From assembly GCF_902809835.1 (NCBI RefSeq), contig NZ_CADDWM010000010.1:62001-126000 (forward strand): a DNA stretch of 64,000 nt, given 5' to 3'. Below, in pieces: positions 10,917-63,482 of this stretch (its first letter is position 1; the number at the start of each line of letters is the position of its first letter). The position numbers and the translations under genes are program-made. The DNA is from Agromyces sp. Marseille-P2726. Lineage in GTDB: Bacteria > Actinomycetota > Actinomycetes > Actinomycetales > Microbacteriaceae. The notes under the pieces are model-generated. The model was not told the DNA's origin. It made no database searches and saw only the letters and a list, made by a program, of their open reading frames with translations.

Positions 10917-11410
10917 GCCGCGAGCTCGTGATCCGGTCGGCCGCGGCATCCGACTGGGCGCAGATCTACGCGATCATCCAGCAGGTCGTGCGCGAGGGCG
11001 AGACGTACGCCCTCCCCGGGTCCCTGTCATCGGATGCCGCACGCGACCTGTGGATCGAGGAGCCGCCCGGGCACACGGTCGTCGCCGAGCTCGATGGCGC
11101 GATCGTGGGCACGGCCAAGATGGGCCCCAACCGGCCGGGCCACGGCGACCACATCGGCACCGCGTCGTTCATGGTCGACCCGACCGTCCGCGGTGCCGGT
11201 GTGGGCCGGCGTCTCGGGGAGTACGTCGTCGACTGGCACCGGCGCGAGGGCTACGAGGGCATCCAGTTCAACGCGGTCGTCGCATCGAACGAGGCGGCCG
11301 TTCGCCTCTGGACGTCGCTCGGCTTCGAGATCGTCGGAACGGTGCCGAACGCGTTCCGCTCACCGCGCCACGGGCGGGTCGGCCTGCACGTGATGTTCCT
11401 CGCGCTCTGA
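10913..11410 (+). CDS. GNAT-family N-acetyltransferase
   Basis: 165 residues with the GNAT fold: acetyl-CoA loop [10 protein letters not shown] at about residues 92-101 and the C-terminal [13 protein letters not shown] segment that closes the fold. It resembles the uncharacterised GNAT proteins in Actinobacteria related to phosphinothricin-type acetyltransferases; the substrate is unknown. ATG overlaps the prfA stop (ATGA), so it is translated from the same message. The last codons and the stop lie inside a 36-bp tandem duplication. Confidence 0.8.
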
Positions 11411-11471
11411 CGCTCGCCGCGGCATCCGGTCGCCATCGCGCTCTGACGCTCGCCGCGGCATCCGGTAGCCA
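11400..11471 (+). repeat. 36-bp tandem duplication at the end of the GNAT gene
   Basis: Copies at 11400-11435 and 11436-11471 differ at a single base (35 of 36 identical). The first copy contains the last four codons and the stop of the GNAT gene; the second is outside it. Only two copies, no spacers, so this is a local duplication and not a CRISPR array. Confidence 0.9.
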
Positions 11472-11479
11472 CCGCGTTC

Positions 11480-11542
11480 GCTGCGCCACTTCGACTTCGT
11501 CTGCGCCATCATGACTGGCGCAACACGCTGCCAACTGGCGCA
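11480..11542 (+). repeat. Left arm of imperfect inverted repeat around the AbiEi-type gene
   Basis: Bases 11480-11520 match the reverse complement of 12665-12705 at 34 of 41 positions, with a perfect 14-bp outer core and perfect blocks of 9 and 8 bp. Weaker similarity continues to 11542 (about 46 of 63 overall). The arm itself contains TGCGCCA (11502-11508) facing TGGCGCA (11516-11522) across 7 bases, so it can also fold alone and might terminate GNAT transcripts. Confidence 0.75.
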
Positions 11543-11648
11543 GAAGGAGCCCGTCCACCGTTCCTCAACAGGTCGAACGATGCCCGGCGCGTTCGAGGTG
11601 CGGGCGGATGCCGCATCCGCCCGCCGCAGAGGCGGTCATCCTGTCGTC

Positions 11649-12623
11649 ATGGACCTCGATTCGTTGCCGCGAGCGGGTGGAGACGGGATCCCCTCCGCGC
11701 AGGCACGTGCCGTCGGCGTCTCGGCGACGCTCCTGACGGCGCGGGACGCGGGCCACCTCGTCGCGGTACGGCGTGGCATCTACGTTCCTGCGGCGGGACG
11801 CGACGACCTCTCGGCGGTCGATCGACATCGTGAAATGGCATTCGCCGTCGCGCACCAACGGCCCGGCGTGGTGTTCGCCGGCTTCACTGCGGCCCTGCTC
11901 TCGGGGATGCCGGTCGTCGGTGGCGTGTCGCGCGATGTCACGGTGCTCGCGTCGGGCACCTCCGGTCGACGCCGCAACGGGGTGGTCGAGATCGTTCGGC
12001 GAACGGGAGCCCCGATACTCACCGACGACGGCGTCGCGGTGACCCCGATCGTCGACACGCTGATCGAGGTGGCACGCAGCCGGCCTCTGCTCACCGCGCT
12101 CACGATGACAGATGCTGCGCTCTGGGTTCCGCGATTCGGCGCGACGAAGGCGGTGACCACGATCGAGGATCTCCGTTCAGCCTTCGAGGCGCTCCTGCCG
12201 TTCCCGGGCAGCCGCAAGGTCGCCGCGGTGCTCGACCGTGCGACGACACGTGCCGAGACACCCCTCGAGACGCTCAGCCGGGTCCGGATCGAGGAGTTCG
12301 GTTTCCCACGACCAGAACTCCACGTGCTCGTGAACCGCCCTGGAGGGCGTGGGCCGGCGTTCCTGGACTTCGCGTGGCCCCACCATGGTGTCTGGGGTGA
12401 GGCCGACGGAGCGGGCAAGTACCTGGGCAGCGCCCTCTCCGAGGGCGATCGGCGCTCGCCCGGCGAGATCGTTCGGGACGAGAAGATGCGCGAGAACGAC
12501 GTGCGGGCAGTGACGCGATGGGCGTGCGGGCGATGGGACTGGGACGAGGCCTGGACGGGCGGGCCGCTCCGTCGCATCCTGCTCCAGGCAGGCCTCCCGT
12601 TGGTGCGAGCGAGACGGCGCTGA
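11649..12623 (+). CDS. AbiEi-type HTH protein with nuclease-like C-terminal domain
   Basis: 324 residues. The N-terminal 90 residues look like the winged-helix/AbiEi_4 domain (SAQARAVGVSATLL, then RRGIYVP), as in type IV antitoxin AbiEi-like proteins. The C-terminal third has ETPLETLSRVR (about 203), LDFAWP (about 239) and GEADGAGKY (about 249-257). This spacing of acidic residues and Lys recalls the PD-(D/E)XK/DUF559-like fold of many actinobacterial proteins annotated as AbiEi. No AbiEii toxin gene is adjacent, so a toxin-antitoxin pair is not shown. ATG 11649 is preferred over upstream starts because the frame before it runs through the repeat arm. The function is unknown; it could act on DNA in defence or stress. 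Confidence 0.65.
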   Translation: MDLDSLPRAGGDGIPSAQARAVGVSATLLTARDAGHLVAVRRGIYVPAAGRDDLSAVDRHREMAFAVAHQRPGVVFAGFTAALLSGMPVVGGVSRDVTVLASGTSGRRRNGVVEIVRRTGAPILTDDGVAVTPIVDTLIEVARSRPLLTALTMTDAALWVPRFGATKAVTTIEDLRSAFEALLPFPGSRKVAAVLDRATTRAETPLETLSRVRIEEFGFPRPELHVLVNRPGGRGPAFLDFAWPHHGVWGEADGAGKYLGSALSEGDRRSPGEIVRDEKMRENDVRAVTRWACGRWDWDEAWTGGPLRRILLQAGLPLVRARRR

Positions 12624-12642
12624 TTCCGCCTCCGGGCCTCGC

Positions 12643-12705
12643 GGCGCCACTTGTGCGCCCTCTCCGCCAGTCCAGCTGGCGCAGAGGCCGCCGAAGTGGC
12701 GCAGC
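12643..12705 (+). repeat. Right arm of imperfect inverted repeat around the AbiEi-type gene
   Basis: This is the reverse-complement partner of 11480-11542. It contains a perfect hairpin, CGCCAG (12665-12670), 5-base loop, CTGGCG (12676-12681), that can act as a terminator between the convergent AbiEi-type gene and cysE. No target-site duplication is seen outside the arms. Confidence 0.75.
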
Positions 12706-62034: not shown

Positions 62035-62793
62035 CTACACGCGCTCTCGCGGCACGACGCGGTCGGCGAGCTTCGCGAGCGCCCCCTGCGGCGGGGCCTC
62101 GTTGTAGCGATTCGCCGGCTCCTGGCCGGTGAGCTCCTGGATGGCCGCCATGATCTCGTCCGTGGCCGCCCGCCGCGCCCGGCCCGACGACGCCGGACCG
62201 TGCCGCGAGAGGTCGATGGGCGCACCGAAGCGCACCGTCACCGGCCGCACGCGCGGCAGCTTCGCGCCGACCGGCTGGATCTCCTGCGTGCCGACGAGGC
62301 CGACCGGCACGACCGTGGCGCCCGTCTCGAGCGCCAGCCATGCGACGCCGGTGCGCCCACGGTAGAGACGGCCGTCGAGCGACCTCGTGCCCTCGGGGTA
62401 GAGGGCGAAGGCGGCGCCCGATTCGAGGATGCGACGGCCCTGGTCGAGCGCCGTCTGGGCCTGCGCGCCCGCGCCCCGCTCGACGCTCACGGCGCCGATG
62501 GCGCCGAAGAACGTGCGGGAGAGCCAGCCCGAGATGCCCGTGCCCGTGAAGTAGTGCGACTTGGCCAGGAACTGCACGGGCCGCGGCGATGCGAGCGGGA
62601 TCACGATGCTGTCGACGAACGACAGGTGGTTGCTGGCGAAGATGACCGGGCCGTGCTTCGGCACCCGCTCGGCGCCGGTGATCACCGGGCGGTAGACGAG
62701 GTGGACGAGCGGTCGCAGGATGCCGCGGACGATGCGGTAGATCGGACCCTGCCGAACGGGTGCTCGCGCCGCGTCGGTTTCGATCTCGCTCAC
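62035..62793 (-). CDS. plsC: 1-acyl-sn-glycerol-3-phosphate acyltransferase
   Basis: 252 residues. Adds the second acyl chain in phospholipid synthesis. Acyltransferase box NHLSFVD (HX4D type) and the substrate box YPEGTRS are present, and GTGISGWL and VPVGLVGT match the family. GTG 62793 is preferred over ATG 62832 because TATCGT lies 6 bases upstream, and the longer form would cover the divergent promoter. Divergent from the gene at 62844. Confidence 0.93.
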   Translation of the reverse strand: MSEIETDAARAPVRQGPIYRIVRGILRPLVHLVYRPVITGAERVPKHGPVIFASNHLSFVDSIVIPLASPRPVQFLAKSHYFTGTGISGWLSRTFFGAIGAVSVERGAGAQAQTALDQGRRILESGAAFALYPEGTRSLDGRLYRGRTGVAWLALETGATVVPVGLVGTQEIQPVGAKLPRVRPVTVRFGAPIDLSRHGPASSGRARRAATDEIMAAIQELTGQEPANRYNEAPPQGALAKLADRVVPRERV

Positions 62794-62799
62794 CCTCCG

Positions 62800-62837
62800 A
62801 CGATAGGCGCGGCGGTATTCCCGGCTCGGCATACCAT
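62800..62837. promoter_or_regulatory. Divergent leaderless promoters of plsC and the PPTase-like gene
   Basis: Minus strand: TATCGT (62805-62800) with 6 bases to the plsC GTG. Plus strand: TACCAT (62832-62837) with 6 bases to the ATG at 62844. The two start codons are only 50 bases apart, so the -35 regions overlap and the promoters probably compete. Confidence 0.55.
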
Positions 62838-62843
62838 GGCCGC

Positions 62844-63482
62844 ATGGACGTGTCGACCGACGGCCAGCTGGTCGAGCTCGCGGAGGCCGGGATCCGCGTG
62901 CTCATGGTCACGGGCAGCCGGCGCCCGCCGTCGGCCGGCGCGACCCTGCGCGGACTCGTCGGCGAGGTGTCGGGCGTCCCTGCCGACGACGTGGAACTCG
63001 TGCACGCCTGCGCCGTGTGCGGGGCGCGTCATGGCCGCGTCGCCATCGGCTATCCGCTGACGCCGTCGGGCGCGCCCTGGTACGCCGACGTCGCGGTGTG
63101 CGGCGATGCGGTGCTCGCCGCGGCGACGACGCGGCATCCGCTCGGAGTGGGCATGGAACCCGCGACCCTCGACCCGGGTGTCGTCATCGACGAGGCGGCC
63201 TTCCACGCGAGCGAACGCGATGCGCTCGACGAACTCGATCCGACCCGGCGTCCGCTCGTGCGGGCGGCGCTCTGGGCTCGCAAGACCGCCTTCCTTCGCG
63301 CGGTGGGGCACTCCGACTTCCTCGAGCCGTCTCGACTCGCGTTGACGATCCCGGGTGCCGACGGCGGCGAGGGGCGCATCGCCCGGAGCGCACCCGAGTT
63401 CGATTCGGTGTGGCAGCGGGTTCGGTTCCACGACGTGCCGGTACCGGGCGACCGCGTGGCATCCGTCGCCGTCATCGGTTGA
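62844..63482 (+). CDS. Degenerate phosphopantetheinyl-transferase-like protein
   Basis: 212 residues. The order of motifs is that of Sfp-type 4'-phosphopantetheinyl transferases: CAVCGARHG (about residues 54-62), a strand AVCGDAVLAAATT, then the metal motif, then FHASERDAL and LWARKTAFLRAVG. But GVDVE is GVGME (Gly103 for the metal-binding Asp, Glu105 kept), and the KE pair is Lys147-Thr148. So activity may be lost or changed. No carrier protein or synthase gene is near. Start fixed by TACCAT 6 bases upstream. Confidence 0.6.
   Translation: MDVSTDGQLVELAEAGIRVLMVTGSRRPPSAGATLRGLVGEVSGVPADDVELVHACAVCGARHGRVAIGYPLTPSGAPWYADVAVCGDAVLAAATTRHPLGVGMEPATLDPGVVIDEAAFHASERDALDELDPTRRPLVRAALWARKTAFLRAVGHSDFLEPSRLALTIPGADGGEGRIARSAPEFDSVWQRVRFHDVPVPGDRVASVAVIG

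Follow-up and report, generated by a model that had tools for sequence, protein, structure and literature searches.

The 64,000-nucleotide stretch of Agromyces sp. Marseille-P2726 DNA analysed here, hereafter the window, contains a gene for a nuclease-like protein, lying in an intergenic region with a palindrome on either side. The ORFs give the order prfA, a GNAT gene, the AbiEi/nuclease-like gene, cysE, cysK and prmC, where prfA, cysE, cysK and prmC are the names given to these neighbors on the basis of their sequences. Pfam assigned the preceding gene as GNAT and the next one, cysE on the other strand, as a hexapeptide transferase; neither the ORFs nor Pfam revealed an AbiEii nucleotidyltransferase toxin gene beside the AbiEi/nuclease-like gene at this locus. 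The start of the gene was set at 11649, from which its homologs align, within a longer ORF spanning 11511–12623. The first-pass annotation had treated the flanking sequences as inverted-repeat arms of one 1.2-kb unit, possibly mobile or else bound by the gene's own product. The features of the locus are:

11482–11542, unstranded: R1 copy 1 (left arm), with boxes TGCGCCA at 11482, TGCGCCA at 11502, TGGCGCA at 11516 and TGGCGCA at 11536; from the sequence and the genome-wide pattern and profile.
11600–11624, unstranded: short hairpin GCGGGCGGATGCCGCATCCGCCCGC between element copy 1 and the start codon; from the sequence.
11649–12623, forward strand: nuclease-like gene, an ORF of 324 aa with a predicted AbiEi-type wHTH/antitoxin fold and a predicted EDxHD/Vsr-like nuclease domain.
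11649–12245, forward strand: predicted AbiEi antitoxin-like part, residues 1–199; from fold comparison.
12252–12602, forward strand: predicted nuclease-like domain, residues 202–318; from fold comparison and conserved residues.
12643–12703, unstranded: R1 copy 2 (right arm), with boxes 1–2 decayed and boxes 3–4 intact at 12677 and 12697; profile score 60.2 bits, E 7e-16.

Hairpins similar to GGATGCC..GGCATCC (11600–11624), which lies inside the unit in the window, occupy the prfA–cysE gap of many relatives that lack the gene. The GNAT gene ends in a 36-bp tandem duplication (copies 11400–11435 and 11436–11471, 97% identical) that stops 10 bp before element copy 1.

Sequence searches with the window protein gave a PADLOC AbiEi match at 3e-4, a Pfam AbiEi_4 match at 0.017, which is below the cut-off, no relevant match in NCBIfam and no relative among solved structures at E ≤ 1. 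Across the homologs, Pfam matched AbiEi_4, AbiEi_1, DUF559 and MTES_1575 at E ≤ 0.01 and no others. The window protein was modeled with AlphaFold2 on 28 homologs (pLDDT 88.9). In this model, residues 1–199 superimpose on the AbiEi antitoxin of S. agalactiae (6y8q; Z 8.2, rmsd 6.4, 176 aligned) and on Rv2827c of M. tuberculosis (1zel; Z 7.0, rmsd 5.3), and the C-terminal domain (204–318) superimposes on I-Bth0305I (3r3p; Z 10.4, rmsd 2.5, 94 aligned) and Vsr (1cw0; Z 8.1). Foldseek alone returned nothing below 0.001 for the model, its best match being 6y8q at 0.005. A second model, of a distant homolog from G221 that is 25% identical to the window protein, gave the same pair of folds (6y8q, Z 10.7, rmsd 6.5; 3r3p, Z 9.8). 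All 19 homologs compared share the E, D, E-x-D-G and K-Y of the nuclease domain without variation; the conserved residues of the window protein are E207, D240, E251-x-D253-G and K257, so that it and its homologs read E-x-D where the name EDxHD has HD. The window protein is accordingly predicted to join a DNA-binding part of AbiEi type to a nuclease domain of EDxHD/Vsr type, and its fold and conserved residues suggest a nuclease function. The PADLOC and fold matches agree with the earlier call of an AbiEi/nuclease-like gene between the arms. Neither the Pfam matches (E ≤ 0.01) nor the fold matches show a Y1/HUH tyrosine transposase domain.

Recomputing the arms (11480–11520 and 12665–12705) reproduced the reported figures, an inverse match at 34 of 41 positions with an outer run of 14 bp, and the similarity said to go on inward to about 63 bp was found as 46 of 63; a repeat search of the window paired the arms over 62 nt at 74%. 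These arm coordinates, however, cut across the actual features, each of which is a full palindrome. The element, R1, is 61 bp long and has four boxes, TGCGCCA-N13-TGCGCCA-N7-TGGCGCA-N13-TGGCGCA, at offsets 0, 20, 34 and 54. Searching the genome of the window (3.56 Mb, 15 contigs) with a three-box pattern allowing up to three mismatches yielded 21 matches at 11 places, against none for the reversed control pattern in the same 3.56-Mb genome, and the pattern is therefore not a product of chance. A profile built from these 11 copies returned exactly these places, with E ≤ 2.6e-10 for the better-scoring strand in every case and the next match at 0.04. Two of the 11 copies flank the gene, and nine stand alone elsewhere with unrelated flanks. 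Since either arm is complete in itself and the palindrome also stands by itself at nine other places, we discarded the reading of the pair as terminal inverted repeats bounding a single IS-like unit; no target duplication around the gene and arms was seen by eye.

The conservation of R1 is concentrated in its boxes. Its consensus is symmetric and contains neither the word GTAG nor the word CGTC. In the spacers, covariation between the two arms is absent, with 0.685 observed against 0.66 expected in G070 and 0.503 against 0.513 in G000, so that a RAYT-like hairpin route is unsupported for R1. A known structured RNA was also considered and rejected, since Rfam at gathering scores returned nothing on five loci and the arms do not covary.

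The copies of R1 track the gene across Agromyces. Among 60 Agromyces genomes, we defined the gene subfamily as the 15 whose best match has E ≤ 5.6e-68, a cut-off chosen after the list was inspected; the next genome below it, G001 (1.6e-64), has its gene at another locus with another element. Of the 15 subfamily genes, 11 have R1 on both sides, three (L069, L070 and L071) on one side and one (L073, in G003) on neither. Copies of the arms thus flank 14 of 15 subfamily genes, which bears out the view that they belong to the gene, whereas 20 loci of other homologs showed R1 matches at chance level only (the test had a 36th source, L018, which records the L060 locus again). At E ≤ 1e-4, R1 was found in 14 of the 15 gene-bearing genomes and in 9 of the 45 others (Fisher p 5.8e-7), with a median of 11 copies versus 0 and a range of 0 to about 45 copies per gene-bearing genome. 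The gene-bearing genome without R1 at this threshold, G078, has weak flanking copies scoring 22.8 and 15.9 bits.

Among genomes without an intact gene, G004 carries 26 R1 copies and keeps, in its 190-bp prfA–cysE gap, a gene remnant of 35 residues (window residues 165–199, 60% identity, E 3e-9). The other gene-less genomes with R1 are G060 (6 copies), G013 (4), G002 (3 or 4) and G022 (2), together with G064, G029, G018 and G019 (a single copy each); a gene remnant at prfA–cysE was found in none of these. Weak AbiEi matches (E about 1e-4) beyond cysE in L096, L099, L108 and L202 were treated as chance. On a prfA plus cysE tree of 45 genomes, from which G005 was left out, the state of the gene changes at least seven times on well supported branches. 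Over seven independent pairs, the element (at least two copies) changed in the same direction as the gene in 4.7 and in the opposite direction in 0.2 on average, with a median p of 0.0625. The link between gene and element is therefore not one clade's accident, with the tree-aware test by itself borderline.

Comparison of gene and element positions suggests that the unit is old and that it is the element that moves. In the subfamily genomes, the gene occupies the prfA–cysE gap in all but G005 (14 of 15). It is thus present at this locus in only 14 of 60 Agromyces genomes, and the unit is far from fixed, while arm copies do occur beside AbiEi-like genes. In 26 gene-less genomes, the prfA–cysE gap measures 13–112 bp in 21 and is longer in G082, G064, G029, G004 and G060; some other gene-less genomes hold a GNAT gene between prfA and cysE. 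The gene therefore appears to be inherited mainly vertically at prfA–cysE and to have been lost repeatedly, and the palindrome appears to be what disperses. The mobility suspected in the first-pass annotation would accordingly apply to the palindrome, which recurs at 11 places in the genome of the window and in other Agromyces, rather than to the gene, which sits mostly at one locus. Cargo of a phage or plasmid was rejected as an explanation, as the window protein had no tblastn match at 1e-5 in phage or plasmid records.

Eight of the nine dispersed G000 sites (C10:170307 was left out) were compared in six relatives. G030 and G072 carry the element at three of them, the other five are filled in G000 alone, and G077, G009, G074 and G080 have it at none. 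Clean insertion junctions between G000 and the six relatives were not obtainable, the intergenic regions being too diverged. In the close pair G070 and G004, eight G070 sites corresponded to none of 19 G004 element loci. Of these, L262 has a clean empty site in G004, L253, L257 and L260 are empty with messy indels, and the comparison gave no call for L255, L258, L268 and L271. At L262, G070 is 78 bp longer than G004 and holds the element with the 7-bp GCCGCTG at both ends, so that a single element is present in one species and absent from the other; this could reflect either an insertion that duplicated 7 bp or a loss from G004 by deletion across the GCCGCTG repeat. Two G070 elements 6.5 kb apart (L264 and L265) are identical over 61 bp and have different outer flanks. 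Where these two bracket about 6.5 kb in G070 (L312, 1580–8170), G004 (L313) has about 1 kb of other DNA; elements may border variable segments.

Many other members of the protein family are flanked by different palindromes, among them TGAGGGCC boxes at L074, L076 and L077, GTCGGAGG at L082 and L088, and GGAATCCC at L084 and L087. A second profile, R2, for which the flanks of the TGAGGGCC genes in G001, G006 and G016 were the sole input, gave 44 two-strand matches in G016, 36 in G001 and 24 in G006, six training copies included, and 2 in G024, which correspond to one copy; it was absent from the other 56 of the 60 Agromyces genomes. Its boxes lie at offsets 0, 18 or 19, 35 or 36, and 54 or 55, a geometry similar to that of R1 in different letters. 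Both elements are symmetric, 61–62 bp long and present in 1 to about 45 copies where they occur.

The two flanks of a gene matched each other above z 6 in 13 of the 17 Agromyces homologs that fall outside the R1 subfamily (19 of 31 with the subfamily included) and in 12 of 21 from other genera. None of the 30 cysE and 18 other control genes did so; above z 4, the controls gave 3 of 30 and 1 of 18. This test omits L078 (z 175), L122 (z 23) and L141, whose loci are cut by contig ends, and some of the cysE control loci contain the gene–element unit itself. A palindrome score of at least 12 was reached in both flanks of 10 of 17 other-subfamily, 11 of 15 R1-subfamily and 10 of 20 other-genera homologs, compared with 3 of 40 controls (2 of 22 cysE and 1 of 18 others). 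In at least one flank, it was reached by 19 of 20 distant homologs versus 17 of 22 cysE and 9 of 18 other controls. Palindromes on one flank are thus so common among controls that they provide no evidence, and the both-flank count alone separates the homologs. Protein identity correlates with element similarity (r 0.57 over 28 homologs, 0 of 2000 permutations as high), and equally so for the 16 homologs outside the R1 subfamily (r 0.57, 0 of 2000), indicating that protein and palindrome match subfamily by subfamily. The flanking-palindrome rule is not universal, as a clear matching pair is missing in about half of the distant homologs.

The genome of the window also encodes a paralog, L005, whose own palindrome, ATCGAGAAGTCGC...GCGACTTCTCGAT, has one copy upstream and two downstream. 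On contig C9 of G000, the paralogs L003 and L004 (G000:C9:14538-15407 and 62200-63069) have equal scores and opposite orientation, and a pair of weak profile matches is mirrored at C9:22659 and C9:54918; this pattern suggests a long inverted duplication on the contig, either genuine or produced by the assembly.

A profile of 28 homologs (E ≤ 1e-25) found the family in 11 of 149 genomes of the actinobacterial phylum, representing nine genera with Agromyces included. Searching eight flank palindromes in seven genomes of other genera revealed copies far from the gene in five of the seven among the matches listed. The G221 element has at least 35 copies in its genome, at least 33 of them far from the gene; the corresponding far copies, among the matches listed, number at least 17 in G135, at least 11 and at least 2 for two elements in G053, at least 4 in G041 and at least 4 in G199. 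G037 and G167 gave 5 and 3 palindrome matches in all. Twenty G221 copies are near-identical units of 55–57 bp that form a near-perfect hairpin; their edges are sharp, and the sequences beside them are unrelated. Conservation extends over the full 55 bp, and one stem pair of the hairpin, which reads T-A, G-C or A-T, is complementary in 19 of the 20 copies.

We propose that the AbiEi/nuclease-like gene and its cognate palindrome form a two-part system, in which the palindrome, standing on both sides of the gene and dispersed through the genome, is spread or maintained by the protein, a reading we hold with moderate confidence. In such a system, a dimer of the protein, or a pair of dimers, would recognize the palindrome via the boxes. 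We propose dimer binding because AbiEi proteins bind palindromes upstream of their own genes (PMC11062541) and because I-Bth0305I is reported to dimerize on nearly 60 bp (PMC3943268). The nuclease domain would then nick or cut DNA at the palindrome, and repair or replication might copy this short sequence to new sites, so that the gene could sustain a population of non-autonomous elements. The flanking copies may double as operators for autoregulation. Whether the homologs of the actinobacterial phylum, with their subfamily-specific letters and similar element size of about 50–80 bp, make up a second class of self-spreading palindromic repeats, independent of RAYT, is in our judgment close to an even call.

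The palindromes might instead be operators of a transcription regulator or nucleoid-type binder whose nuclease domain is degenerate or incidental. This would agree with AbiEi proteins, which occupy a pair of palindromes in the promoter of their own gene and can also act at other sites (PMC11062541), with the restriction of R1 conservation to the boxes, as in a bound site, and with the three of eight sites that are occupied alike in G000, G030 and G072. The genes around the dispersed copies give a divided picture. Read by eye, the eight G000 copies comprise two between convergent, four between co-directional and two between divergent genes, and the last two would suit operators. In G070 and G221, where contexts were assigned by a GC3 heuristic, 17 of 20 G070 copies with a context were 11 convergent, 6 co-directional and 0 divergent (the rest being two called inside a gene and one unclear), and the 19 G221 copies were 8 convergent, 6 co-directional, 2 divergent and 3 inside genes. 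So few divergent placements make it less likely, without settling the matter, that the copies serve mainly as operators. The variation in copy number among gene-bearing genomes, the conservation of the full 55 bp in G221 and the invariance of the nuclease residues also speak against this explanation, which we regard as unlikely.

A role of the gene as a defence or selfish nuclease, of a free-standing homing or abortive-infection type, with the palindromes as self-markers, decoys or protected sites, is more doubtful still. The AbiEi-like and EDxHD homing-endonuclease-like folds and the repeated gain or loss of the gene would fit such a role; yet the locus lacks a toxin partner, phage and plasmid records gave no tblastn match at 1e-5, and near-identical 55-bp copies with unrelated flanks would be left unexplained. 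Finally, the palindromes could be moved by another host enzyme, such as a RAYT, with the gene merely tending to sit beside them. The layout of RAYT/REP systems is indeed similar (PMC2817692), but the subfamily-by-subfamily match of protein and element, together with the confinement of R2 to the three genomes whose gene carries it and one copy in G024, makes this very improbable.

Short dispersed palindromes are present in many bacterial genomes, and the RAYT is the linked enzyme in the papers found; in the open-licence literature, we found no paper linking AbiEi or DUF559-type nucleases to dispersed palindromes. If the two-part system holds, a second, unrelated enzyme would be tied to such repeats, from a family that Pfam barely recognizes. 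A use is thereby proposed for AbiEi–nuclease fusions, and the natural set of protein–palindrome pairs with differing letters would make the spread and persistence of repeats directly testable.

Each part of the protein has a known counterpart with a different setting. The N-terminal two thirds of the window protein resemble AbiEi type IV antitoxins in the predicted wHTH and C-terminal fold, with a weak sequence match; the locus differs in having no AbiEii toxin gene, an extra nuclease domain, and palindromes that also stand downstream and dispersed. The C-terminal domain shares its predicted fold with the EDxHD homing endonuclease I-Bth0305I, Vsr endonuclease and DUF559, and the dimer site reported for I-Bth0305I (PMC3943268) is the size of these palindromes. 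Unlike an EDxHD homing endonuclease gene, however, this gene is not in an intron or intein, and it has intact palindromes on both sides rather than one split site.

The organization is reminiscent of the RAYT/REP systems, for which PMC2817692 describes a flanking palindrome pair, a correlation of gene presence with palindrome abundance, and joint divergence. Likewise, the Agromyces gene stands between two copies of its own palindrome (on both sides in 11 of 15, with a flanking pair in about half to three quarters of the homologs from other subfamilies and genera), its presence tracks the cognate copy number with a borderline tree-aware test, and gene and palindrome diverge together. The differences lie in the parts. 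The Agromyces protein is of predicted AbiEi type plus EDxHD/Vsr type, not an HUH/Y1 transposase; R1 and R2 are symmetric, 61–62 bp long and less numerous (1 to about 45 copies, versus the more than 100 usual for REPs in PMC2817692), with no arm covariation in R1; and the R1 consensus bears neither GTAG nor CGTC, the tags of the REP super-families named in PMC3733652. Given the shared layout without a Y1 domain, the pair probably works like RAYT/REP but is not a member of it. What sets the pairing with dispersed palindromes apart is the protein, which bears no relation to the enzyme tied to repeats in the papers found; the organization itself has a known analogue.
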